52,511 nucleotides of DNA, taken from Robiginitomaculum sp. (GTDB taxonomy: Bacteria > Pseudomonadota > Alphaproteobacteria > Caulobacterales > Maricaulaceae). Below the pieces are notes generated by a model. It worked only from the letters and a program-made list of their open reading frames with translations. It made no database searches and had not been told where the DNA came from. Positions 37,143 to 52,511 of the stretch are shown one piece after another (the first letter of the stretch is position 1; every line of letters starts with the position of its first letter). Both the position numbers and the translations under genes were made by a program. The stretch covers positions 1-52,511 of the forward strand of contig JALWSB010000137.1 of NCBI GenBank assembly GCA_027080345.1. Reading direction: 5' to 3'.

Positions 37143-37838
37143 TTACCGCATCCAACCGGTGCGTTGTATCAGCCCGGTCATGATCGGCACCAGCGCGTCT
37201 TCGATATCTGTTTTTATGTCCCGTAAGGCGGCGAAGGCGGCTTTGGTATCGCCAATGGGGCCTTCTTCAAATTCCATAATCAGATCTTCGGCCATAGCCA
37301 GTTTGAAGCCCGGATGGCCGCTAAAGCCAAAGGCGTTATCGCCGATTTGAAAGAGCGCCGGATGGCCGTCTTCATCTTCTGCCAATACGCGGGCATAAGC
37401 GGGCGGCACGGGCCGGTCGCGCATATAGATGACATGGGGGTAAGTGGCCGGCAAATAGCCGTTAAGGGCCGTGTCATCGACGCGTGTTGCCGTGCCGACG
37501 GCGAAGGTCAGCGGCGTTTTTTCCACCGTTCCATCGGCGGCGAGACTCAATATCTGCGCGCCCAGCCCGATGGCCAGAATCGGCGTGCCGGTCATCAGGG
37601 CGGCGCGGGTCAGGGCGATCTCATCGGCCAAGGTGGGCACATCGCGTTCCCCGGCGCTGCCCCAGGGGCCGCCGCCCAACAGCACCAACCCGTCCCCCAG
37701 CGCATTCATGTCGGGCGGCTTGCCGCTTTCGGTAAACGGGCGTGCATAATTAAAACGGATTTGCCGCCCCTCCAAATGGTCTTCCATCAGGCCAAGATAT
37801 TCGGCGGATGTGTGCTGAATGACAGAAAGATTTTTCAT
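37143..37838 (-). CDS. lipX: Class I glutamine amidotransferase-like protein lacking the nucleophile Cys (LipX-like)
   Basis: 231 residues from ATG 37838 (MKNLSVIQHT). GATase-1 fold: DGLVLLGGGPWG, GTPILAIGLGAQILSLAADG, and C-terminal AFGFSGHPGF. The nucleophile elbow, normally GxCxGH, reads AIGLGA, so the catalytic Cys is Gly91 and the following His is Ala. The catalytic His175 is present but the Glu of HPE is missing. It should therefore not hydrolyse glutamine; a binding or structural role is likely. It is divergent from the radical-SAM gene across 92 bases. Amidotransferase-like genes recur in sHdr-linked lipoate clusters; I recall the name LipX for them, with moderate certainty. Confidence 0.8.
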   Translation of the reverse strand: MKNLSVIQHTSAEYLGLMEDHLEGRQIRFNYARPFTESGKPPDMNALGDGLVLLGGGPWGSAGERDVPTLADEIALTRAALMTGTPILAIGLGAQILSLAADGTVEKTPLTFAVGTATRVDDTALNGYLPATYPHVIYMRDRPVPPAYARVLAEDEDGHPALFQIGDNAFGFSGHPGFKLAMAEDLIMEFEEGPIGDTKAAFAALRDIKTDIEDALVPIMTGLIQRTGWMR

Positions 37839-37930
37839 GAAAAAGGCAAACCTCTTGCGATAGGGCGCTGATGCTGGCAGACTGTATATTAGAAAAGTCG
37901 CATATTGGCCACAGCCTGCGAGGGAAGTTG

Positions 37931-38965
37931 ATGAACTGGCACCACAACCTGTTGCAAATCGAAGCGCTTGAAGATGCGGATCTGGACGCCGCGCTGATTG
38001 CCGATTTTGAAAAAAACGCGGCGCAGGTGATGGACCGCTCCATTCGCTTTTCGACACCGACATTCAAAGAATACGAATCATCCGAGCTTTCGGGCTGCGG
38101 CAAGAACTCTTTTCCGGCGTTTTCCATAACCGCCGGGGGCTGCGCGCTGAATTGCGATCATTGCCAGAAAAAAATACTGGAGCCGATGATCCCGGCGGTC
38201 AAGCCCGAACATCTCGACCAAAAAGTGCGCGATATGGTGCTGTTACAAAACCTGCAAGGGTTTTTGCTGTCCGGCGGATCGAACAAACATAATGAGATAA
38301 AATACGAGCGCTATTTGCCGGTGGTGGAAAAGTTAAAGCATGATTTTCCGCACCTTCAGGTGGCCATTCATACCGCGCTTCTGGACGAAGCGGCGGCGCG
38401 GCGCATGGAGGCGGCAGGCGTTGATTCGGCGATGATGGATGTTATCGGCGCGCAAGAAACTATCAATGAGGTTTACAAGCTGGACCGCCCGGTGGCTGAT
38501 TTTGAAGCCACACTGGCCGCCCTGACGTCGACCAGGCTGAAAGTCACACCGCATATTGTCGTGGGCCTGCATTATGGGGAGATTTTGGGCGAGGCGAACG
38601 CCCTCGATATTGTCAGCCGCTATGATGTACACGCTTTGGTGCTGGTGGTGATCATGCCGTTTTATGCCAAGCCGGGCACGTTCAAAACCCCCTCGACATC
38701 GGATGTTGGGCGAATATTTTTGGAGGCGCGCAACCGCCTGCCTGACAAACAGGTGCTTCTTGGCTGCGCCCGTCCGCCGGGCATGCACAAGCGCATTACC
38801 GATGCCTATGCGGTGATGGCCGGGCTGGATGGCATTGCCTTTCCCGCCGACGGGGCGGTGGCCACCTGCGCCGCCATTGGCCGCCCGTTCAGCCAGGAAC
38901 ACGCCTGCTGCGCCATTAAAATTGGCGGCGGCAAAGCGGCCATGTCATCGTCGTGCGCGGCATGA
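37931..38965 (+). CDS. lipS1: Radical SAM protein, LipS1-type lipoyl synthase component
   Basis: 344 residues. The radical-SAM cluster motif CALNCDHC uses Cys71, Cys75 and Cys78 (CxxxCxxC), and ITAGGCALNCDHCQKK, LLSGGSNKHNEIKYE and IVVGLHYGE follow the TIM-barrel order. Extra cysteines at Cys56 and in the tail (HACCAIKIGG...SSSCAA) could hold an auxiliary cluster, as needed by a sulfur-inserting enzyme. With LipS2 it is expected to insert the two sulfur atoms into octanoyl groups, replacing LipA. ATG 37931 is chosen over the upstream in-frame ATG because of GAGGGAAG just before it. Whether this is LipS1 or LipS2 rests on gene order and is less sure than the function. Confidence 0.82.
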   Translation: MNWHHNLLQIEALEDADLDAALIADFEKNAAQVMDRSIRFSTPTFKEYESSELSGCGKNSFPAFSITAGGCALNCDHCQKKILEPMIPAVKPEHLDQKVRDMVLLQNLQGFLLSGGSNKHNEIKYERYLPVVEKLKHDFPHLQVAIHTALLDEAAARRMEAAGVDSAMMDVIGAQETINEVYKLDRPVADFEATLAALTSTRLKVTPHIVVGLHYGEILGEANALDIVSRYDVHALVLVVIMPFYAKPGTFKTPSTSDVGRIFLEARNRLPDKQVLLGCARPPGMHKRITDAYAVMAGLDGIAFPADGAVATCAAIGRPFSQEHACCAIKIGGGKAAMSSSCAA

Positions 38966-38990
38966 GCGGACCTGAGGCAATGTTTACGGT

Positions 38991-39058
38991 GGCATTCCGG
39001 CGCAAGTCGGAATCCAGCTTCTGCGTTGCTCTGGATACCGGCTTTCGCCGGTATGACG
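38991..39058 (+). repeat. Paired hairpin repeat between lipS1 and lipT
   Basis: Left CATTCCGGC / GTCGGAAT + CCAG (left GTCA eroded to GGCA); right CTGG + ATACCGGC / GCCGGTAT + GACG. The lipT ribosome-binding site (GGAGG) starts a few bases after it. Confidence 0.85.
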
Positions 39059-39083
39059 TTTTGCTGGAGGCGAGTAGATCGCT

Positions 39084-40154
39084 ATGACCGACCGCACCCC
39101 CGACATTCTTGTTCTGGGCCTTGGTCCGGCGGGGGCGTGCGCGGCAAAGGCGGCGGCGCAGGCCGGGTGTAATGTGATGGCGCTGGAGCGTAAAAAACAA
39201 CCCGGCGCGCCGGTGCAATGCGCTGAATTCGTGCCCGCATTGATTGGGGCGCAGGTCGAAGGTCTCAAAGCCAATACGGTGCAGGATATTACCAGCATGA
39301 TAACGCAGGTCGAGGGCGAGGCCCCGGACCTTATGGCCGATTTTCCCGGGCGGATGATTGACCGTGCCCGCTTCGATGCGGCGCTGGCGCAAGCGGCGCA
39401 AAAAGCGGGCGCATCTTGCCTTTTTGGGCATAATATTCGCGCGGTTGAGCCGGGCGGCGCTGTGATACTGGCCAGCGGCGAGACGATCACGCCCAAAGTC
39501 ATTATCGGGGCCGATGGGCCGCATTCGCTGGCTGGTCGGGCCATTGGCGCGATCAATAAAGAGATATTGGAAACGCGCCAGATCTGCGTGCCTTTGCGCA
39601 AACCTTTTGAATCCACGGACATTTTCCTGAAAGCCGACATTCGCGGCGGCTATGGCTGGCTGTTTCCCAAAGGAGATGTGGCCAATCTTGGTGTCGGGGT
39701 GATGGCGGCAGACAAAGGAGCCTTAAAACCCGTTCTTGAGACGCTGCACGCGGCGCTGATCAAAGACGGGCGCATTGGCAAAGATGTTATCGGCCACACT
39801 GGCGGGGCGATACCGGCGGGGGGCATGGTGATGCCGCATGGGATGCTGGGCGCAACGCTGGTGCTGTTGGCGGGCGATGCGGCAGGTCTGACCAACCCGG
39901 TTACCGGAGCCGGGATCAATGCCGCCGTTATGTCGGGTCATCTGGCCGGCGAGGCGGCAGCGGATTGGCTGGACGGGGATGCGGACGCACCGGAAAATTA
40001 CCATCAGGATTTAAAAGATCTGTTCGGGGCCTCTTTGGCGCGGGCCTTAAAGCGGCGGCGCGAGATATTGCATAGCTATGACAATGAAAATACGCCAACG
40101 CCGGCCCAATTACGCGCCGGCTGGATTGCCTATTCAGACTATTGGGCCGCATGA
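39084..40154 (+). CDS. lipT: FAD-dependent oxidoreductase, geranylgeranyl-reductase family (LipT-like)
   Basis: 356 residues. N-terminal FAD motif LVLGLGPAGACAAKAAAQAG, a QCAEFVPALIG flavin contact segment, and the second FAD motif LLAGDAAGLTNPVTGAGINAAVMSGHLAG near 265. The family spans geranylgeranyl reductases and related flavoproteins. Genes of this type sit between the two LipS genes in sHdr-linked lipoate clusters and are thought to support LipS1/LipS2 by supplying electrons; I recall the name LipT. A chlorophyll or archaeal lipid role is not supported by the context. Start ATG 39084 is preceded by GGAGG. Confidence 0.83.
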   Translation: MTDRTPDILVLGLGPAGACAAKAAAQAGCNVMALERKKQPGAPVQCAEFVPALIGAQVEGLKANTVQDITSMITQVEGEAPDLMADFPGRMIDRARFDAALAQAAQKAGASCLFGHNIRAVEPGGAVILASGETITPKVIIGADGPHSLAGRAIGAINKEILETRQICVPLRKPFESTDIFLKADIRGGYGWLFPKGDVANLGVGVMAADKGALKPVLETLHAALIKDGRIGKDVIGHTGGAIPAGGMVMPHGMLGATLVLLAGDAAGLTNPVTGAGINAAVMSGHLAGEAAADWLDGDADAPENYHQDLKDLFGASLARALKRRREILHSYDNENTPTPAQLRAGWIAYSDYWAA

Positions 40155-40186
40155 TATATGTGTACACGATTTGGGAGTGAAACGAG

Positions 40187-41479
40187 ATGAGCTGTTTGAA
40201 ACCTGAAAATGCCACGCCGGGAAAAACCGGACCGGGTGGGCTTGATTTCAACCCTTTCGAGGTAATGGAGCCGCGCAGCCCCGTATTGCCGCCCAAAGAG
40301 GCACGCAATGGTGGCCGGGTCAAAGCCGCTGATGCGCGCCCGGCGGGGCTGTATCTTCCCAATAACAATATCCAGACGCCGAATATGACCTCGCCGGAAT
40401 ATGTTCAGCTTTCCACGGCGGCGGCGCTGACCCTTGGCATTATGCCCGGTAAAATGCACCGTTGTGGCTGCACCCGCTGTTTGAATCTTCTTCTGACTTA
40501 TCCAGAAGGCTGCCGGGCCAATTGCGCCTATTGCGGGCTGGCGCGCCACCGCGAGGCGGAGCGCGATTATGCCGATCGCAATTTTATTCGTGTCGACTGG
40601 CCCAGCGTGCCGATGGACCAGATTGTTGATATTGTCGCGCAGGATCCGGAAAATTCGCCGTTTCATCGCATGTGCATTTCAATGATTACGCACCCAAGGT
40701 CAGACGATGATACGGTAACGGTGCTGAAAAACTGGACCTCCAAAATTGACCCGGCGACGATTCCCATCTCGATCCTTTCCAACCCGACCACCATGGGCCG
40801 CGCCAATGTTCAGGAATTGCGCGATCTAGGGGCGGATATTTTCACCGTGGCGCTGGATGCGGCCACACCGGCATTATTTGATCGCACCCGTGGCAAGGGC
40901 GTGCAATCACCGCACACCTGGAAAAAATACTGGGAGGTTTTGCTCGACGCACGCGACATCTTTGGCAAGGAAAAATTTGGCGCGCATATTATTGTCGGTA
41001 TGGGCGAAACCGAATTTGAAATTTTGCAATTGGTCGAACAATTGGTCGAAATGGGCGGGCACAGCCACATGTTTTGCTTCTACCCGGAAAAAGGCTCGCT
41101 GATGGATCATTTGCCGGCCACGCCGCGCGACCAGTGGCGACGGGTGCAGTTGGGCCGCTATTTGCTCGATTATTGCGGGGCCAAGGTCAAACACATGAAA
41201 TTTGACAGCGAAGGCCGGGTGATCGATTTTGGCCTGCCCAGGGCCGAACTGGACATGATTATTGACACTGGCATTGCCTTTCGTACATCGGGCTGTCCGG
41301 GTAAATTTGCCGAAGATATTTCGGCCTGTGATCGCCCTTATGGTGACAGCCCGCCTTCTGACATCGCCTCTTATCCCTTTGCCCCAGCGGATGTGGATTT
41401 GCGGCGTATCCGTGCGCAACTGGACATGCAGAAACCGGGCGAAACATACGAAGAGGGCGACGATCTGGAAGACTATTGA
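40187..41479 (+). CDS. lipS2: Radical SAM protein, LipS2-type lipoyl synthase component (BioB-like)
   Basis: 430 residues. Radical-SAM motif CRANCAYC with Cys109, Cys113 and Cys116. A second cysteine set just upstream (HRCGCTRC, Cys93/95/98) and SGCPGKFAEDISACDRP near the C-terminus could bind an auxiliary iron-sulfur cluster that donates sulfur. The barrel is biotin-synthase-like (RVDWPSVPMDQIVD, CISMITHPRSDDDT, FTVALDAATPALFDRTRGKG). Together with LipS1 it is the expected two-protein lipoyl synthase. The sequence is too different from single-chain LipA (which has CxxxxxC and RSSY) to be LipA. The assignment to LipS2 rather than LipS1 follows gene order. Confidence 0.82.
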   Translation: MSCLKPENATPGKTGPGGLDFNPFEVMEPRSPVLPPKEARNGGRVKAADARPAGLYLPNNNIQTPNMTSPEYVQLSTAAALTLGIMPGKMHRCGCTRCLNLLLTYPEGCRANCAYCGLARHREAERDYADRNFIRVDWPSVPMDQIVDIVAQDPENSPFHRMCISMITHPRSDDDTVTVLKNWTSKIDPATIPISILSNPTTMGRANVQELRDLGADIFTVALDAATPALFDRTRGKGVQSPHTWKKYWEVLLDARDIFGKEKFGAHIIVGMGETEFEILQLVEQLVEMGGHSHMFCFYPEKGSLMDHLPATPRDQWRRVQLGRYLLDYCGAKVKHMKFDSEGRVIDFGLPRAELDMIIDTGIAFRTSGCPGKFAEDISACDRPYGDSPPSDIASYPFAPADVDLRRIRAQLDMQKPGETYEEGDDLEDY

Positions 41480-41499
41480 ATATAGATGCAATATTATTT

Positions 41500-41616
41500 C
41501 GTCACCCTCCGGCTTGATTTATTTCGTCACCCTCCGGCTTGACCGGAGGGTCCATCTCCCAGGAATCCTGATGACTTGTTTTCCTGTGGGTCCTCCGGTC
41601 AAGCCGGAGGACGGCG
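41500..41616 (+). repeat. Paired hairpin repeat with partial tandem duplication, lipS2-sLpl gap
   Basis: A truncated left half (41500-41517) is followed 7 bases later by a full one (41525-41554, ACCCTCCGG / CCGGAGGGT). The right half (41587-41616) contains the exact 19-bp reverse complement of the left core CCTCCGGCTTGACCGGAGG. This is the largest inverted repeat seen in the window and is located inside the lipoate cluster, about 50 bases before the ligase start. Confidence 0.88.
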
Positions 41617-41664
41617 AGGAAGGGGATGCGTTCAAAAGAGAATACGCACAAGGATCGCTCCGCC

Positions 41665-42738
41665 ATGACTAAACCCCGCTTTCGCGTCATTGATACCGGC
41701 CTGCGCACCGGGCGGCAGAATATTGCCTTTGATCAGGCGATGATTGATGCGCACCTGGCGGGTGAAATCCCTGACACCATTCGTTTTATTCATTTTAAAC
41801 CGGTAGCGCTTTTGGGTCGGCATCAGGCGTTGAGCCAGGAAATACGCCAGCAAGAATGCGCGGCGCGGGGCATTGAGGTCGGGCGGCGTATCACCGGCGG
41901 CGGGGCGATTTATCTCGATGAAGGGCAATTGGGCTGGGCGCTGGTCATGCGGCGGCGCACGTTGTCACTGGGTGATTTGGCAAACACCGCCACGGCCATT
42001 TGCAAGGCAGCCGCGGCGGGTCTTTCCTCTCTTGGCATTGAGGCACGCTTTCGTCCGCGCAATGATATTGAGGTAGCGGGGCGTAAAATATCGGGTACGG
42101 GCGGTTTTTTTGATGGCGATACGCTGATTTACCAGGGCACGGTGCTGGTCGATTTAAATACGGAAAAAATGTTTGCCGCGCTCAATGTTGCCCGGGAGAA
42201 ATTGGCACGCAAAGACATTGATGACGCGGCGGACCGGGTAACGTGTTTGCGCGCTTTGCTGGGGGATAAAACCCCGGATATGCCGACTTTGGAAGCGGCT
42301 TTGGTGCGCGGCTTTGCCGATCATTTGGGGCTTGATCCGTACTGGGGAGAAGTCCTGGACGCCGAAGAACGGCGCGCCGCAGAGCTTTATGATGAAGAGA
42401 TCGGCACGGATGAATTTGTTGCCGAGATTGACGATCCGGCGCGCGAGACGGGGGTGCTCAGCGGAACCCATACGGGAACTGGCGGCACGGTAAACGCCTT
42501 TGTGCGCCTTGAAGGGGCGCGCAATGAACGCTTGCGTGAGGTGTTGCTGACGGGGGATTTTTTTGTCACCCCGCCGCGTATTATTTACGATCTGGAGGCC
42601 TCTTTGCGGCGTGTGCCGGTGGCCGGGGTTATGGCGCATGTTACCGGGTTTTTTGATGCCGCCAATGTCGGTATGTTGAGCGCCGCGCCGCAAGATTTTG
42701 CCAAGGCGATTTTACAGGCTGTTACGCCGGAAAAATAA
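41665..42738 (+). CDS. Lipoate/octanoate-protein ligase, fused sLpl(AB) type
   Basis: 357 residues from ATG 41665 (MTKPRFRVID), with AAGGA before it. N-terminal LplA/LipB catalytic domain: HFKPVALLGRHQALSQEI, the lipoyl-AMP site RRITGGGAIYLDEGQLGWAL (74-93), and catalytic Lys141 in AGRKISGTGGFFDGDTLIYQGTVLVD. The C-terminal part (about 240-357, ETGVLSGTHTGTGGTVNAFVRLEGARNERLREVLLTGDFF) is the accessory LplB-like domain. This fused type is the one linked to sHdr clusters, where it loads octanoate onto the lipoate-binding protein before LipS1/LipS2 add sulfur. Symbol left blank because slpl naming varies. Confidence 0.9.
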   Translation: MTKPRFRVIDTGLRTGRQNIAFDQAMIDAHLAGEIPDTIRFIHFKPVALLGRHQALSQEIRQQECAARGIEVGRRITGGGAIYLDEGQLGWALVMRRRTLSLGDLANTATAICKAAAAGLSSLGIEARFRPRNDIEVAGRKISGTGGFFDGDTLIYQGTVLVDLNTEKMFAALNVAREKLARKDIDDAADRVTCLRALLGDKTPDMPTLEAALVRGFADHLGLDPYWGEVLDAEERRAAELYDEEIGTDEFVAEIDDPARETGVLSGTHTGTGGTVNAFVRLEGARNERLREVLLTGDFFVTPPRIIYDLEASLRRVPVAGVMAHVTGFFDAANVGMLSAAPQDFAKAILQAVTPEK

Positions 42739-42816
42739 CTGATCACATCTGCGTGTGCCCCTGCACAAATATGAAACATGCCCGTATACTGGAGAAAATA
42801 CCAAGGGGCATTGGGC

Positions 42817-44046
42817 ATGCGACTTCTTTCAACACTTCTCAGCAAACTGATTACGCGGGGCACATTACGGGTGCGCGACCATAAGGGGCGCATCCATGTG
42901 TTTGCCGGTGCGCCGACCGAGCCGGTGGCAACCATCCATATTCACGATCCACGGGTTTATAACAAACTGGTTTTCAAGCCAGAAGTGGCGGCGGCGGAAA
43001 GCTATATGGACGGGACGTTGAGCTTTGAAGAGGGGACCGATCTTTTGGGCTTTCTTACCTTGATGGTAATGAACACCAAAAACATGCAAAAACACCCGAT
43101 CCAAAACCTCGTCAAAAAGGTGCGCAAAGGGTTAAAGCGGGTGCACGAGTTTAACCCGATTGCCAAATCGCGCGAAAATGCATCGCATCATTATGATCTG
43201 ACCGAAGAGCTTTACCGCATGTTTCTTGATGAAGACATGCAGTATTCATGCGGTTATTTCGTCAATCCTGAAACCGATACGCTGGAAGCGGCACAGATCG
43301 CCAAAAAGCGCCGCATTGCCGCCAAGCTGGACTTGCAAGACGGGATGGATGTTTTGGATATTGGCTGTGGCTGGGGCGGCATGGGGCTGTATCTGGCGCA
43401 GGTCGCCGACGTAAAGGTCACCGGCATTGCCCTGGCCAAAGAGCAATTGCGCGTCGCCAATGCGCGGGCCAAAGAAATGGGTTTGGCGGACCGGGCAAAG
43501 TTCGACTATCAGGATTACCGCGAGGTGACGCAAAAATTTGATCGCATCGTTTCGGTCGGCATGATCGAGCATGTCGGGGCACAGCATCTGGATGAATATT
43601 TTGGCGCTATCAAGGCGCTGCTCAAACCCGGCGGGCGGGCGCTTGTTCATTCAATTGGCCGGCAAAATCCGCCCGGTACAACCAATGCTTTTATCCGTAA
43701 ATATATTTTTCCCGGCGGGTATTCGCCCTCTATTTCCGAAGCCTTTGCCTCGGTCGAGCGGGTTGGTCTGTGGGTTGCTGATTGCGAGGTCTGGCGGCTA
43801 CACTATCATTACACCATCATGCATTGGCGCGAACGCTTTTTGGCCCATTGGGACGAGGCACAAAAGCTCTATGATGAGCGCTTCTGCCGTATGTGGGAAT
43901 TTTATCTGACCGCTGTCGCGCTTGGCTTTAAGTACGGCACCAATATGAATTTCCATCTGATTTTATCGGGTGCGCGTGATGATGTGCCGATTACGCGCGA
44001 CTTTATTGGCAAGAATGAGCGGGCCTTGAAAAAACGCGGGCTTTAA
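42817..44046 (+). CDS. Cyclopropane-fatty-acyl-phospholipid synthase family methyltransferase
   Basis: 409 residues. SAM-dependent methyltransferase: motif I VLDIGCGWGGMGLYLA (179-194), GIALAKEQLRVANARAKEMGL, VSVGMIEHVG, and the bicarbonate/active-site region HSIGRQNPP and FPGGYSPSISEAFASVE. The N-terminal domain SHHYDLTEELYRMFLDEDMQYSCGYF (around 123-148) matches CFA synthases. It would add a methylene bridge to unsaturated acyl chains of membrane phospholipids. ATG 42817 with AAGGGG upstream is preferred to ATG 42778. Position between the lip and sHdr genes may be chance. Confidence 0.93.
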   Translation: MRLLSTLLSKLITRGTLRVRDHKGRIHVFAGAPTEPVATIHIHDPRVYNKLVFKPEVAAAESYMDGTLSFEEGTDLLGFLTLMVMNTKNMQKHPIQNLVKKVRKGLKRVHEFNPIAKSRENASHHYDLTEELYRMFLDEDMQYSCGYFVNPETDTLEAAQIAKKRRIAAKLDLQDGMDVLDIGCGWGGMGLYLAQVADVKVTGIALAKEQLRVANARAKEMGLADRAKFDYQDYREVTQKFDRIVSVGMIEHVGAQHLDEYFGAIKALLKPGGRALVHSIGRQNPPGTTNAFIRKYIFPGGYSPSISEAFASVERVGLWVADCEVWRLHYHYTIMHWRERFLAHWDEAQKLYDERFCRMWEFYLTAVALGFKYGTNMNFHLILSGARDDVPITRDFIGKNERALKKRGL

Positions 44047-47398: not shown

Positions 47399-48154
47399 CT
47401 ACTCCACCAGTGTGGCCAGGGTATCGTGGTGGGCGCTGATCAGTTCGCGCAGGTAAAAGCCTATGCTGTTGTCATCCGCAAAACCGGCGTCTTTGGCCGC
47501 CTTCAAGGTCGCCCCCTCGGGCAGGTCCGGGCGGGCGGCGAAGGCTTGTAAATTTTTGTAGGCCCCAATGGTGAAAACATCGACATCGGTGCCCATATCC
47601 CCCACAAATATGAGATTGCCGCGCCGCTTTGTGGCTTGCAGGTATTTGTTTTCCATTTCGCGTTGGTCAACCAGTTTATAGGCCATATCCGGCGCAGAAT
47701 CGAACATCTCGATATGGAAGAATTTGGCGTCCTTGATGTGTGCAGAGACAATTTCCCATGAGGGTCCATAGGCGAACAATTCGGCGCGATATGCCAATCG
47801 GCCCGTACGGTCCGGCGGCAATAGCGTGCCACGGCGGAACCAGCTTCGCCGGGTCTCGGTTTCGGCGTCCATCCGCTCCTTGGCGAAAAACGCGCTGTAA
47901 CTTTTAATCGGCTCGAGCAGCATTAAATCCCATTGGTCGCCTTGTGAATGACGCATGATCAACGGGTCGGTGCGCCGCGAATCTTCATAAAACCCGAGCC
48001 CCTTTAATTCAGTCAGATCATGGATCAGCGCTTTAAGTTGGCCCGGTGCGGCACGCATCGTGGTGACCAGATATAACTGGTCGCGCACCGGTTCAGTGGC
48101 CGATACGCCGGTGGCCGATAATATAAAGAATGAAATAAAAATAAAACGAGTCAT
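47399..48154 (-). CDS. Exported protein of unknown function, divergent from the sHdr operon
   Basis: 251 residues. N-terminal signal peptide MTRFIFISFFILSATGVSATE. The mature part starts DQLYLVTTMRAAPGQLKALIHDLTELK, an arrangement that resembles a dimeric alpha-beta barrel (NIPSNAP/ABM-like), and a similar unit may recur near KFFHIEMFDSAPDMAYKLVDQREMENKYLQ, so it could contain two such domains; the family itself I do not recognise. A GGGGGTGTTACCCCC hairpin sits right after its stop codon. Divergent from dsrE, 248 bases apart, with a promoter palindrome in between. Confidence 0.75.
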   Translation of the reverse strand: MTRFIFISFFILSATGVSATEPVRDQLYLVTTMRAAPGQLKALIHDLTELKGLGFYEDSRRTDPLIMRHSQGDQWDLMLLEPIKSYSAFFAKERMDAETETRRSWFRRGTLLPPDRTGRLAYRAELFAYGPSWEIVSAHIKDAKFFHIEMFDSAPDMAYKLVDQREMENKYLQATKRRGNLIFVGDMGTDVDVFTIGAYKNLQAFAARPDLPEGATLKAAKDAGFADDNSIGFYLRELISAHHDTLATLVE

Positions 48155-48402: not shown

Positions 48403-48780
48403 ATGGCTGAAAAGCTGCTTATTGTTATGGCCAATTCCGATCCGCGCAATGGCGAGGAACTGGGTGCCCCGATTTTTCAGGCCACCGTTGCCGCCGCCAT
48501 GGAGTATGAGGTTGAGGTGATTTGCACAGCAACCTCAGGCATTTTGATGAAAAAGGGCGAAGCGGAAAAGCTGTTCGTCAAGAAGGGCTCGCCCAAGAGC
48601 GTTTATGAATTTATCAAGGACGCCCACGACGCCGGTGTGAAGTTTTATTGCTGCTCACCCAATCTGGACCTTTTCGACATGACCACCGATGACCTCATCC
48701 CCGAATGCGAAGGCATTGTCGGCGGGGCCTATCTCGTCGAAGAGGTCATGGAAGAAGATATTCAGGTTTTGACGTATTAA
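48403..48780 (+). CDS. DsrE-family sulfur transferase (DsrE3 type)
   Basis: 125 residues. The DsrE/F fold: LLIVMANSDPRNGEELGAPIFQATVAAAMEYEVEVICT, then GVKFYCCSPNLDLFDMTTDDLIPECEGIVGGAYL. A pair of adjacent cysteines, Cys83-Cys84, lies in the sulfur-binding position. As I recall, the Hyphomicrobium DsrE3C carries its essential cysteines at the same two numbers. It would relay persulfide sulfur from a rhodanese/TusA to the sHdr complex in the cytoplasm. First gene of the operon with GGGAG before the ATG; the next gene starts 21 bases later. Confidence 0.88.
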   Translation: MAEKLLIVMANSDPRNGEELGAPIFQATVAAAMEYEVEVICTATSGILMKKGEAEKLFVKKGSPKSVYEFIKDAHDAGVKFYCCSPNLDLFDMTTDDLIPECEGIVGGAYLVEEVMEEDIQVLTY

Positions 48781-48801
48781 GCCACCCACAGGGAATTGAT
48801 C

Positions 48802-49548
48802 ATGGCGCATTCAGCAACTTCACGGGTTCAGGAATATATTGGCGATCCTCTTTCGGATACGCCGGCCCTGCCCCTGGAGAAAATGGAAGAGATATTCGCC
48901 GACATCCAGTCGGATTTGCGTTTTGACCACCAGTTAAACGGGTGTCTGAATTGCGGGATTTGCACCGCCACCTGCCCGGCGGCGCATTATTATGATTTCT
49001 CCCCGCGCGAGATTGTCCAATTGTTGTGGACCGAAAATCTTGATGGCATTTATGATGCCATGCAGGAAAAAATATGGGCCTGCGCCCAATGCTATACCTG
49101 CGCGGCGCGCTGTCCGTTTGGCAACTCGCCGGGCGGGCTGGTTATGCTGATGCGCGAAACCGCCATCAAACATGGCATGGAAAGCGCCAAGAATGTTTTG
49201 CGCCCGTTTTCGCGGGTGATGCTGAAACTGATTTCCACAGGCAACCAATTATCCCCCGACATGATCAACCCGGACCATTTTGCCGATTGGGGACCGAATA
49301 TTTCCAAGGTCAAAGCGCCGTTAAAACTCTTGCGCAGGGCCATTCCCATGCCGACCCTGAACACCACGGAAACGGCCTGGGAAGTGAATTTGAAGACTTC
49401 TGTCGAGCTTTATACCATTTGGGAAGAAACCGGCGTTTTGGACCAGTTGGAAACTGTGGATGAAAACCTGTTCGACGTGATTTTGGATATTATGGACGAA
49501 AAACGCGAAGACTGGGAAGACTGGCAGGATGAACAGGACGACGATTGA
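48802..49548 (+). CDS. hdrC1: Heterodisulfide reductase-like subunit HdrC1 (sHdr)
   Basis: 248 residues. Two [4Fe-4S] motifs: CLNCGICTATCP (Cys48, 51, 54, 58) and CAQCYTCAARCP (Cys94, 97, 100, 104). The rest is helical with an acidic tail (EDWEDWQDEQDDD). It links electron flow between HdrA flavin and HdrB1 in the sulfur-oxidizing Hdr-like complex. It is cytoplasmic; no membrane helix. ATG 48802 is used in preference to the TTG two codons before; AGGGA precedes it. Gene order dsrE-hdrC1-hdrB1-hdrA matches sHdr operons of sulfur oxidizers and not methanogen Hdr. Confidence 0.93.
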   Translation: MAHSATSRVQEYIGDPLSDTPALPLEKMEEIFADIQSDLRFDHQLNGCLNCGICTATCPAAHYYDFSPREIVQLLWTENLDGIYDAMQEKIWACAQCYTCAARCPFGNSPGGLVMLMRETAIKHGMESAKNVLRPFSRVMLKLISTGNQLSPDMINPDHFADWGPNISKVKAPLKLLRRAIPMPTLNTTETAWEVNLKTSVELYTIWEETGVLDQLETVDENLFDVILDIMDEKREDWEDWQDEQDDD

Positions 49549-49571
49549 TCGTCCGCAACAAGGAGACCATT

Positions 49572-50933
49572 ATGGCCACCAAAGACAAAGATGATGGCGC
49601 GCATTTAACCGGCCACGGGGCCGAATGGCGCGATGCGAATTTAAGCCGCGAAGACGCGCTGGTCGCCACCTCATGGGTTGAGCAAAAAATCAACAAACGC
49701 TCCATGCTGACCAATAAGGACCGGGTGCATGACATCCGGGACGTCATGTGGCAGTTGGAAAAAGAAGGCGAGATCAAGGTTCACCGGGTGACCGACGAGC
49801 ACGAACCGGTGATCGCCAAAACCCTGTATGGCTGGGACAAAAAAATCCCCACCACCCAGCTTTGGCACCATAAATCATGTGGCCAGTGCGGCAATATCCC
49901 CGGCTATCCGGCCTCATTGCTGTGGCTGATGAACAAAATGGACATCCGCTATCTGGACGAAACCGACCAGACCTCCTGCACCGCCTGGAATTATCATGGC
50001 TCAGGCATTGGCAATATTGAAAGTCTGGCGGCGGTATTTTTACGCAATTTCCACCAGGCCTATGTCTCAGCCAAAGCCGAAGGCAAGCCCGAAGGCTATT
50101 ACTATCCTTTGGTGCATTGCGGCACCTCATTTGGCAATTACAAGGAAGTGCGCGAATTTTTGCTGCTCTCATCCGAGCTGCGCGACCGGGTGAAGAAGAT
50201 CCTGGGCAAGCTGGACCGTCTCGTGGATGGCAAATTGTTGATCCCCGAAGAGGTGGTGCACTATTCGGAATGGGTGCACGTCATGCGCAACCGTATTAAA
50301 GAGCATCAGGTGATTGATTGCTCAAACGTACGCGCCACCATCCACCCGGCCTGCCATGTTTATAAAATGATCCCGCAGGATGTGATTTATGATGATGATG
50401 TGCTGAATGGCGACCGGGTTGCGGTGTCTACCGGCATTATTCAGGCCATGGGCGCGCAGGTTATTGATTATTCAACATGGTATGATTGCTGCGGCTTTGG
50501 CTTTCGCCACATTATTTCCGAACGTGAATTCACCCGCTCCTTTTCCATTGACCGCAAAATCAAGGTGGCCGTCGAAGAGGCCAAATCCGATGTCATGATT
50601 GGTCATGACACCGGGTGCATCACCACGCTGGACAAAAGCCAGTGGATCGGCAAGGCCGAAGGCAAGGATTTTGAATTGCCGGTGCTTGCCGATGTGCAAT
50701 TTGCCGCTCTGGTGTGCGGCGCGCACCCTTACAAAATTGTTCAATCGCACTGGCATGCCTCGGCGACCGACAAGCTGCTTGACAAGCTGGGCATCGACTG
50801 GCGCGCCAAAAAAGCCGAATTTGAAGGCTATCTCAAACAGATTGAGAGCGGCGGCGAACAAGAAAATCTTTATGACCCGCGCAGGCGTATAACCGGCGGG
50901 CCTGGCTTCCACAAAACAGAGCAGATCACATGA
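49572..50933 (+). CDS. hdrB1: Heterodisulfide reductase-like subunit HdrB1 (sHdr)
   Basis: 453 residues. Two CCG-type domains. The second is intact in part: Cys261 (HPACHVYK), Cys306-Cys307 (DCCGFGFRH) and Cys349 (DTGCITTL), sites for a non-cubane iron-sulfur cluster. The first is degenerate: Cys103 and Cys106 (SCGQCGN), a single Cys136 (TSCTAW) where CC is expected, and Cys183 (VHCGTS). In HdrB such domains carry the active cluster pair that handles the disulfide or sulfur substrate. ATG 49572 has AAGGAGA before it; the stop overlaps hdrA by ATGA. The N-terminal 90 residues form a charged extension. Confidence 0.93.
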   Translation: MATKDKDDGAHLTGHGAEWRDANLSREDALVATSWVEQKINKRSMLTNKDRVHDIRDVMWQLEKEGEIKVHRVTDEHEPVIAKTLYGWDKKIPTTQLWHHKSCGQCGNIPGYPASLLWLMNKMDIRYLDETDQTSCTAWNYHGSGIGNIESLAAVFLRNFHQAYVSAKAEGKPEGYYYPLVHCGTSFGNYKEVREFLLLSSELRDRVKKILGKLDRLVDGKLLIPEEVVHYSEWVHVMRNRIKEHQVIDCSNVRATIHPACHVYKMIPQDVIYDDDVLNGDRVAVSTGIIQAMGAQVIDYSTWYDCCGFGFRHIISEREFTRSFSIDRKIKVAVEEAKSDVMIGHDTGCITTLDKSQWIGKAEGKDFELPVLADVQFAALVCGAHPYKIVQSHWHASATDKLLDKLGIDWRAKKAEFEGYLKQIESGGEQENLYDPRRRITGGPGFHKTEQIT

Positions 50934-51982
50934 GCACCAAACCAATTTTGATTGTTGGTGGTGGCCCCGCCGGGCTTGCCGCCGCCCACAGCCTGGCCAG
51001 TGTTGGCCAGAAATGCATCCTTGTGGAGAAGAAAGACAGCCTTGGCGGCACACCGATTCATTCGGGCTATGCCAAGCTGGTGCCGTCGGGCGAATGGGCC
51101 AAGGACGCCATTGGCAGCATGGTCGACCGGGTGACCGGCAACAAGCTGATCACCATCAAAACCGGCACCACGGTCAGTGAATTTTCCGGCGAGCCGGGCA
51201 ATTTCAAGGTCAAATATTCCACGGGCAAGGGCGATAGTGTTGCCGCCGCCGTTTTGTGTACCGGATTCACCCATTTTGACAGCATCAACAAACCCGAATG
51301 GGGCTTTGGCACCTTCCCCGACGTGGTGACCACCACGCAGGTCGAACAGATGATTTCATCCGGTCAGGGGGTGCGGCGCCCCTCCAATGGTGAAAAGCCC
51401 AAACGGGTGGCGATTTTGTTGTGCGTTGGCTCGCGTGACCGCCAGATCGGCCGCGAATGGTGTTCCAAAATCTGCTGTTCCGTATCCGCCAATCTGGCCA
51501 TGGAAATTCGCGAGGAACTGCCAGATTGCCACGTTTACGTCTATTATATGGACATTCGCACCTTTGGCCTTTTGGAAACCAAATATTACTGGAAAAGCCA
51601 GGAAGAGTTCAAAGTCAAATACATCAAGGCGCGTATTGCCGAGGTCACTTCGGACGGTGACAAGGTTATCGTCAAAGGCGAAGATACATTGGTCAAACGG
51701 CCGATCACCATCCCGTTTGATATGGTGGTGCACGCGGTCGGCATGGACCCGAATGTGGACAATATGCTGCTGTCATCAATTTTTGACGTTGATCTGGAGC
51801 CACATGGCTTTATTGATCGCCAGAATTCTTACGGCGGCATGGGAGCCAGCTCCCGCGAAGGCGTGTTTGTTGCCGGTTCGGCCACAGGCCCGGAAACCAT
51901 TGACGATTCCATTGCCCAAGGTCAGGCCGCCGCGTTTAGCGCGCTGGCCATTGCCAATGGCCAATTGGCGGCAGCGGAGTAA
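50930..51982 (+). CDS. hdrA: Heterodisulfide reductase-like subunit HdrA (sHdr)
   Basis: 350 residues, far shorter than methanogen HdrA, as is normal for sHdrA. FAD motif LIVGGGPAGLAAAHSLASVGQK near residue 7, and an iron-sulfur site formed by Cys165 (LLCVGSRDR), Cys178, Cys182 and Cys183 (EWCSKICCS). A C-terminal NAD(P)/FAD segment ends with GVFVAGSATGPETIDDSIAQGQAAAFSAL. It would pass electrons from sulfur oxidation to NAD+ or another acceptor. Overlaps hdrB1. After its stop comes a 214-base gap with a paired hairpin repeat. Confidence 0.94.
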   Translation: MSTKPILIVGGGPAGLAAAHSLASVGQKCILVEKKDSLGGTPIHSGYAKLVPSGEWAKDAIGSMVDRVTGNKLITIKTGTTVSEFSGEPGNFKVKYSTGKGDSVAAAVLCTGFTHFDSINKPEWGFGTFPDVVTTTQVEQMISSGQGVRRPSNGEKPKRVAILLCVGSRDRQIGREWCSKICCSVSANLAMEIREELPDCHVYVYYMDIRTFGLLETKYYWKSQEEFKVKYIKARIAEVTSDGDKVIVKGEDTLVKRPITIPFDMVVHAVGMDPNVDNMLLSSIFDVDLEPHGFIDRQNSYGGMGASSREGVFVAGSATGPETIDDSIAQGQAAAFSALAIANGQLAAAE

Positions 51983-52043
51983 AGCGGTTGGAACGGTTTG
52001 TCCCAGATACAGGCATGCGATCGCCGCGATTTTCTTCCAAGGC

Positions 52044-52136
52044 GTGTCACCCCGGAAATTTCAATAGAAAGTATCCGGGGCCCATGGTGAATATTCACCG
52101 CCCAATGGATCCCGGGTCTAACGCCCGGGATGACAC
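52044..52136 (+). repeat. Paired hairpin repeat (ACCCCGG / ATCCCGGG stems), hdrA-hyp gap
   Basis: Left GTGTCA + ACCCCGG...ATCCGGGG, long loop, + CCCATGG; right TGG + ATCCCGGG-TCTAACG-CCCGGGAT + GACAC (52106-52136). The outer flanks GTGTCA and TGACAC mirror each other. Confidence 0.85.
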
Positions 52137-52196
52137 CGGTATTGATAGTCTTGATAACACCGCTGCGGATTTCATTAATGGGGGTATGAATTAACG

Positions 52197-52511
52197 ATGC
52201 TGTCCTTTTTGAACAAAGCAAAAAAGGACGCCGCACCAGCGGTCGAAGACGCACGCCCGCAACTTGAATTATCCGGCCCGGTCCTGCAACAGGCGCTGCA
52301 AAGCGCCATTAAGGGGTGCGAGCATCTGGGCGGTATTGAACGTTATATTGATGCGCTAAAACTCAAATCCACCCTGTTTCGCGAGGCCTTGTGCGATGGG
52401 GCCTGCGAAACCATGACGGTGGAAACATTTGGCGGCCTTTGTGCCTTTATGTCGACGGTGCGCCGCCGTGTTGCGCCCTATCTGGAACCGGCTGAATTTG
52501 CCGCTCTGAAA
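52197..52511 (+). CDS. Conserved sHdr-operon protein of unknown function, N-terminal part
   Basis: The 105 codons in the window run without a stop to the right edge, so the gene is cut there. The sequence starts MLSFLNKAKKDAAPAV and continues with helical, cysteine-containing stretches (IKGCEHLGG, EALCDGACETMTVETFGG). Position right after hdrA matches the hypothetical gene that stands between hdrA and hdrC2 in sHdr operons; I identify it by context, not by a named domain. GGGGGT lies about 13 bases before the ATG, an overlong spacing, so initiation may be weak or start elsewhere. The next genes are outside the window. Confidence 0.65.
   Translation, partial: MLSFLNKAKKDAAPAVEDARPQLELSGPVLQQALQSAIKGCEHLGGIERYIDALKLKSTLFREALCDGACETMTVETFGGLCAFMSTVRRRVAPYLEPAEFAALK

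Follow-up and report, generated by a model that had tools for sequence, protein, structure and literature searches.

The type I sulfur-oxidizing Hdr-like (sHdr) systems are defined by the core genes shdrC1B1AHC2B2 (PMC11582611). In Hyphomicrobium denitrificans, the lipoylated carrier LbpA and the lipoate-protein ligase sLpl(AB) are reported to be required (PMC6067878, PMC10332631), and sulfite is given as the product in papers on this organism. The lipoate machinery of this type is described as modifying the LbpA of sulfur oxidizers (PMC10332631); for Thioalkalivibrio genes, this modification was read on native gels. The stretch of DNA analyzed here (the window) is the entire contig C137, 52,511 bases long, of a draft metagenome-assembled genome (MAG) of Robiginitomaculum sp. 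(2.24 Mb, 202 contigs, 81.7% complete, 4.0% contaminated). Analysis of the window revealed what is very probably the 5' part of a type I sHdr-LbpA system, predicted to oxidize sulfane sulfur in the cytoplasm, together with the dedicated lipoate machinery of LbpA.

A sequence-only reading had described five genes, dsrE3-hdrC1-hdrB1-hdrA-hyp, at the right edge of the window. All five were confirmed as open reading frames (ORFs), with the coordinates and the plus strand that had been given:

48403..48780, plus strand: dsrE3, sulfurtransferase (ORF; DrsE_2, 1.8e-12)
48802..49548, plus strand: hdrC1, with two 4Fe-4S motifs (ORF starting with ATG; several 4Fe-4S models)
49572..50933, plus strand: hdrB1, proposed catalytic subunit with an atypical cysteine pattern (CCG domain, 1e-6; NCBIfam HdrB, 5.6e-32, below the cut-off)
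50930..51982, plus strand: hdrA, short FAD/Fe-S subunit of 350 amino acids (6tjr, E 1e-176; Pyr_redox_2, 8e-17)
52197..52511, plus strand: shdrH ("hyp"), first 105 codons, open at the contig end (identity to a protein of the related locus L039)

Alternative TTG start codons are present upstream of the ATG codons of hdrC1 (48796) and hdrB1 (49545), and hdrA overlaps hdrB1 by 4 bases. The assignment as an sHdr operon held, with the gene order of type I and 6tjr as the best solved structure for HdrA. The 4Fe-4S models, the Pyr_redox_2 match, and the length of HdrA agree with the Fe-S motifs, FAD motifs, and short HdrA that had been claimed. The operon is indeed cut at the right edge; the assembled contig itself stops there, and the remaining operon was therefore looked for in relatives and elsewhere in the MAG. 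The gene list also needed extension, since it had omitted the lipoate-assembly genes located some 6 to 11 kb upstream in the same window.

Searching solved structures with HdrA revealed 6tjr, which we take to be an H. denitrificans protein, as the best match (590 bits, E 1e-176; 76.1% identity over 339 residues). The next match was a methanogen-type HdrA with 191 bits (about 3e-55). A methanogen-type or electron-bifurcating HdrABC system is suggested by the names of the NCBIfam matches, which refer to methanogen HdrC, HdrB, and HdrA, but all of these matches are far below their cut-offs. Methanogen HdrA was rejected as an identity in a comparison that rests on scores, with 187 to 222 bits against cut-offs of 1100 to 1400 and 350 amino acids against model lengths of 762 to 777. 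The linkage of lbpA and the lip genes also argues against such a system, and we assign it almost no probability.

The sHdr operon was compared with 80 loci of other genomes, which include, by title, Woeseiaceae, Lysobacterales, and Hyphomicrobiales. For the genes present, all 80 loci keep the core order dsrE3-hdrC1-hdrB1-hdrA-H-hdrC2-hdrB2-I-lbpA on a single strand. The individual genes were found as follows: dsrE3 in 71, hdrC1 in 74, hdrB1 in 78, hdrA and H in 80 each, hdrC2 in 74, hdrB2 in 69, I in 64, and lbpA in 63 loci, with HdrC2 and HdrB2 counted at 50 bits or more. Every absence of a core gene coincided with the end of a locus, where at most 149 bases were left. This arrangement is not due to chance, because order and strand are the same in all 80 loci. 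Several sequence motifs are conserved as well. DsrE3 carries a tandem Cys83-Cys84, and the motif C[CS]SPN is found in 68 of 71 relatives; among relatives of sufficient length, both CxxCxxCxxxCP motifs of HdrC1 are kept in 70 of 70 and the CVGSR of HdrA in 79 of 79. Neither of two simple CCG patterns fits any of 73 HdrB1 rows. The closest named HdrA relatives are from Robiginitomaculum sp. MAGs (82 to 96% identical, among the matches listed, which may omit records very near the window), and in the HdrA tree the window falls, with a support of 0.98, into a group with 13 sequences whose titles name Robiginitomaculum.

The partners tusA, hdrC2, hdrB2, and lbpA had been predicted just beyond the window. 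A check of the MAG for these four genes located a cut hdrB2 and lbpA on contig C31; hdrC2 was not seen. tusA does not directly follow the window and was found with dsrE2 on the separate contig C185. C31 ends inside HdrB2, leaving 176 residues that correspond to residues 136 to 311 of the HdrB2 of L039 (92% identical). The fragment is followed by a gene for a 141-amino-acid protein (sHdrI) and then by the gene for LbpA (145 amino acids; GCV_H, 4e-29), whose lysine is within ESGKW, a motif shared by 62 of 62 sufficiently long relatives. Another GCV_H match, stronger than this one, is located on contig C87. The first CCG motif of HdrB2 was found in 64 of 64 relatives of sufficient length; the strict double CCG pattern fits 0 of 64, and the spacing of the second motif appears wider by eye. 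By synteny, C31 would continue the operon of the window. From the spacing in L039, the gap between C137 and C31 is estimated at about 1.73 kb; the remainder of hyp, hdrC2, and the beginning of hdrB2 would be expected there. The names sHdrH and sHdrI, used for proteins of unknown function (PMC11582611), were matched by position to hyp and the 141-amino-acid protein, respectively. On C185, the adjacent genes for TusA and DsrE2 are flanked by a FadL/OMPP1-type gene and a histone-deacetylase-domain (HDAC-type) gene.

The absence of lip genes from the genome was considered and rejected, since a set of lipoate-assembly genes was found at positions 37,143 to 42,738 of the window (percentages are identities to the related locus L041):

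37143..37838, minus strand: lipX, class I glutamine-amidotransferase family without the catalytic Cys (82%; GATase, 5e-6)
37931..38965, plus strand: lipS1, radical SAM lipoyl synthase (89%; NCBIfam LipS1, 1.8e-55)
39084..40154, plus strand: lipT, FAD oxidoreductase (71%; GG-red-SF, above the cut-off)
40187..41479, plus strand: lipS2, radical SAM lipoyl synthase (86%; NCBIfam LipS2, 4.6e-53)
41665..42738, plus strand: slpl(AB), lipoate-protein ligase (81%; LplA-B_cat, 6.9e-44)

LipS1 (188 bits; cut-off, 230) and LipS2 (181 bits; cut-off, 270) both score below their model cut-offs. In LipX, the position of the nucleophile, judged by motif, is occupied by Gly in 57 and by Glu in 1 of 58 rows and never by Cys, and the pattern C.G.Q is found in 0 of 56 sequences. 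Because LipX lacks the catalytic cysteine, the label "putative glutamine amidotransferase" given in PMC10332631 should be used with care. In loci L061 and L062, lipS1 is preceded by a second slpl(AB)-like gene, which is encoded on the opposite strand. The distance from slpl(AB) to dsrE3 is 5.7 kb and is occupied by cfa, algH, a peroxiredoxin gene, an SPFH protein gene, nfeD, and rnhA (named by eye) and by a gene without a Pfam or NCBIfam match. The latter gene (47399-48154, minus strand), directly upstream of dsrE3, encodes a 251-amino-acid protein, of which a copy is present only in L047 among the 80 loci, at the same place and 64% identical. The cyclopropane-fatty-acid-synthase-like gene (42778-44046, by eye) adjoins slpl(AB) here and in L041 and is positioned near an HDAC gene in L135 to L138.

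Several features of type I were found in this genome: the hdrC1-hdrB1-hdrA-H cluster (H cut at 105 codons); a GcvH-like LbpA with the lipoyl lysine position, encoded beside hdr genes; lipS1, lipS2, and slpl(AB), with LipS1 and LipS2 below the model cut-offs; and TusA with DsrE-type sulfurtransferases. With respect to separate hdrC2 and hdrB2 genes after H, the MAG's own hdrB2 is present in cut form on C31. A type II system, with a fused hdrB3 and etfAB, was rejected: HdrC2 and HdrB2 are separate in relatives, and hdrB2 on C31 is followed by shdrI and lbpA; this comparison covered neither the start of this hdrB2 nor a search of the genome for etfAB. In the proposed type I system, sulfane sulfur would be relayed by TusA, DsrE2, and DsrE3 to the sHdr complex. 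The lipoyl-lysine of LbpA would be made by sLpl(AB), LipS2, LipS1, and LipT, and LbpA would shuttle sulfur between active sites. HdrB1 and HdrB2, together with the Fe-S/FAD subunits HdrC1, HdrC2, and HdrA, would withdraw electrons, and sulfite would be released. From this gene content we infer that the organism oxidizes sulfur.

Thiosulfate had been named as a possible substrate, which the search for Sox genes did not support. Only SoxB was used for this test (model TIGR04486; cut-off, 550 bits), and SoxB scored above the cut-off in neither this genome nor any of 99 genomes of the family, 16 of them HdrA positive; the best weak match reached 112 bits. The same model was above the cut-off in 15 of 49 sHdr genomes of a wider set, which was picked by hand from the 80 loci after most near-identical Robiginitomaculum loci and short loci had been left out. 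Five of these 49 genomes were placed in Robiginitomaculum or a neighboring genus by title or identical HDAC coordinates, and none of the five has SoxB above the cut-off. PF04143 (SoxT family) had no match in this genome and was above the cut-off in one (G027) of the 16 HdrA-positive family genomes; SoxT is described as rare alongside type I sHdr (PMC11582611). The absence of SoxB from the 99 family genomes, together with its presence in 15 of 49 genomes elsewhere, makes thiosulfate oxidation through a SoxB-containing Sox system unlikely here, the MAG being incomplete. We infer that the sulfur does not come from thiosulfate handled by such a system.

A true sHdr complex that serves persulfide or sulfide clearance instead of energy-yielding oxidation would fit the lack of SoxB above the cut-off in all 16 HdrA-positive family genomes and in 34 of the 49 sHdr genomes. 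The complete cofactor machinery has been retained, however, and sulfide via SQR, polysulfide, or organosulfur could feed oxidation. In addition, sHdr transcripts rose after sulfide addition in mostly heterotrophic Bohai Sea communities (PMC12345210). Taken together, a clearance function appears rather unlikely. The same study reports 329 proteobacterial MAGs with sHdr from Bohai Sea sediments, likewise from mostly heterotrophic communities, and states that thiosulfate was not a major intermediate there (PMC12345210).

Three points weigh against the assignment as an oxidative type I system. The middle of the operon was not seen, and binning and synteny in relatives are all that joins C31 and C185 to the window. 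The 81.7%-complete MAG showed no hdrC2, which would be expected in the contig gap. No sulfur-feeding enzyme was found among those looked for (SoxB and PF04143 are absent; SoxY, SQR, TsdA, and persulfide dioxygenase were not searched). In a rival explanation, the genome holds only a remnant operon, with C31 and C185 binned wrongly; the division into 202 contigs, the 4% contamination, and the other genes that part the lip genes from dsrE3 in the window favor this explanation. C31 breaks inside hdrB2 and the window breaks inside hyp, however, the HdrB2 fragment of C31 is 97% identical to the HdrB2 of L040, a Robiginitomaculum MAG, and the named genes have open frames; mis-binning is thus very improbable. 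Among Robiginitomaculum relatives, hdrC2 was found in 13 of 13.

Within the family, HdrA was found at E < 1e-190 in 16 of 99 sampled genomes. These comprise 10 of 11 genomes of the own genus and 6 of 9 of one other genus; the remaining 79 genomes gave none. A tally of 56 HdrA-matching family genomes includes weak FAD-domain matches and was not used.

The HDAC-type gene beside tusA-dsrE2 was analyzed further:

L120:2583-3713 (C185): HDAC-type gene beside dsrE2-tusA, with a histone-deacetylase domain (relatives, e.g., in L051, L073, and L103)

Among 44 loci with lipS1, 34 were informative, having at least 1.5 kb visible 5' of lipS1. An HDAC-family gene was present in 26 of these 34 loci and, when the six Robiginitomaculum loci were set aside, in 25 of 28. 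In 23 of the 28, it is positioned directly 5' of lipS1 on the same strand, with 10 to 162 bases between the match ends. The Robiginitomaculum HDAC gene is less close to lipS1: its neighbors are dsrE2-tusA in this MAG, cfa and slpl(AB) in both L135 and L137, and cfa in both L136 and L138, and in L139 it is accompanied by none of these genes. At E < 1e-90, an HDAC gene was found in 45 of the 49 sHdr genomes (misses, L060, L098, L108, and L115). In the family, at E < 1e-130, it was found in 11 of 16 HdrA-positive and 0 of 83 HdrA-negative genomes. One of the 11 copies, in a Robiginitomaculum MAG (G089:C159:5337-6422), contains two in-frame stops, which may reflect decay or an assembly error. A class sample of 190 genomes revealed HDAC relatives, at E <= 1e-40, in 4 of 4 HdrA-positive and 31 of 186 HdrA-negative genomes. 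The assumption that such HDACs, similar to the histone-deacetylase-like protein HDLP, are exclusive to sHdr genomes was rejected, since 35 of the 190 class genomes carry a relative and just 4 of them have HdrA.

The active-site residues H139, H140, D174, D176, H178, D259, and Y298 are kept in 32 of 32 aligned rows, and all 66 rows examined in a 103-sequence set retain the catalytic residues at HDLP-numbered positions. We take these residues to be the His-His pair, the Asp/His/Asp zinc ligands, and the Tyr of the active site. In an earlier set, six positions differ fairly consistently between the HDAC groups with and without sHdr. A first tree (83 sequences, 11 from sHdr-free genomes) placed the sHdr-free sequences inside those from sHdr genomes. 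A second tree (103 sequences, 30 sHdr free) revealed a clade of 66 sequences from sHdr genomes with a support of 0.98. For a third tree, 18 sequences from sHdr genomes and one sHdr-free sequence were added and near duplicates were removed, giving 97 distinct sequences. It contained a clade of 55 sequences from sHdr genomes without any sHdr-free member (support, 0.64) and a second group of 30 sHdr-free sequences with 6 from sHdr genomes (L180, L217, L231, L232, L233, and L235), three of which are second copies. One further sHdr-free sequence and HDLP, which presumably derives from Aquifex aeolicus (PDB 1c3p/1c3r), branch outside both groups. The decrease in support from 0.98 to 0.64 with added sequences indicates that the clade depends on sampling. 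A clade copy is present in 43 of the 45 sHdr genomes with an HDAC gene (exceptions, G119 and G145). Transfer of whole clusters between lineages may partly explain both gene order and grouping, and the loci are therefore not independent.

An action of the HDAC-type protein on lipoyl- or octanoyl-LbpA is suggested because the gene is placed before the lip genes, the active site is intact, and the pathway acylates a lysine. Tentatively, the protein could be a dedicated part of the sHdr-LbpA system, namely, a zinc amidase that would strip the LbpA lysine of lipoate, or of octanoate left there wrongly, or that would free lipoate for reuse by sLpl(AB). As other explanations, it might be a deacetylase regulating a pathway enzyme, an amidase releasing lipoate for the ligase, or the product of a passenger gene. 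PMC5596343 names as bacterial lipoamidases two sirtuins, CobB and SrtN, and the enterococcal enzyme Lpa. A search of a limited set of papers linked HDAC or HDLP to neither sHdr nor lipoate assembly, with a mention in a 2024 Protein Science paper on sulfurtransferases being possible. The word "deacetylase" is absent from the main texts of PMC11582611, PMC12423496, PMC10332631, and PMC6067878; the string "hdlp" in the main text of PMC6067878 belongs to HdLplA, a ligase, and not to HDLP.

If the proposed amidase role is true, the protein would act specifically to erase protein lipoylation, without being related to the sirtuins. It would also point to a testable role for deacylases of the HDLP type, the Aquifex protein among them; Aquifex is reported to have an LbpA as well (aq_402; PMC6067878). 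The HDAC-type gene offers a testable lead on the editing or recycling of LbpA lipoate, a step of which no description was found, and this lead bears on the function of this branch of bacterial HDAC relatives. The kind of operon is already known, and sHdr in marine heterotrophs has already been reported (PMC12345210). The present analysis adds an uncultured marine genus to the sHdr carriers; what it contributes beyond a further member is a lineage without SoxB and the conserved HDAC-type gene.

The following observations concern other products of the operon and genes on C31 and C185. The sHdrH fragment is 75% identical to residues 1 to 105 of a 292-amino-acid protein of L039. The predicted structure of sHdrH (pLDDT, 84) gave no Foldseek match below E 0.78, and its best VIA row was 3knt (Z, 5.7; root mean square deviation [rmsd], 4.6; 163 aligned). 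For sHdrI, the data are as follows:

L119:8823-9248 (C31): shdrI, encoding invariant Cys73, Cys127, and Cys128 (65 of 65)

The predicted structure of sHdrI (pLDDT, 88) best matches HEPN domains. The best VIA row is 3o10 (Z, 12.9; rmsd, 2.9; 116 aligned), at a level where helical bundles can reach Z 13 without kinship, and the Foldseek match is weak (E 0.34). An R-x4-H stretch (R78 and H83; H83 in 52 of 65 rows) resembles what we take to be the HEPN motif. About 2.5 to 8 kb beyond lbpA, C31 carries genes for parts or assembly of a cbb3 oxidase (L119:458-5810; ccoP, ccoG, fixH, and a copper ATPase gene, named by eye). The FadL/OMPP1-type porin gene on C185 (L120:187-1518) adjoins tusA-dsrE2, has matches in 15 of the 80 related loci, and is perhaps the lipY (putative fatty acid transporter) of PMC10332631.

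Comparison with known systems revealed the following likenesses and differences. The HDAC-type protein has HDLP as its best solved match (PDB 1c3p/1c3r; E 3e-68) and keeps its catalytic residues; the identity is 38%, and HDLP is placed outside both the sHdr group and the other bacterial group in the trees. The locus resembles the type I sHdr-LbpA system of H. denitrificans in that HdrA is 76% identical to 6tjr. Unlike that system, this genome has neither SoxB nor a PF04143 match, and tusA-dsrE2 and the HDAC-type gene are located on another contig. The operon order is the same as in the sHdr loci of other MAGs; there, tusA-dsrE2, HDAC, lip, and shdr genes often form one stretch, whereas here they are spread over three contigs.

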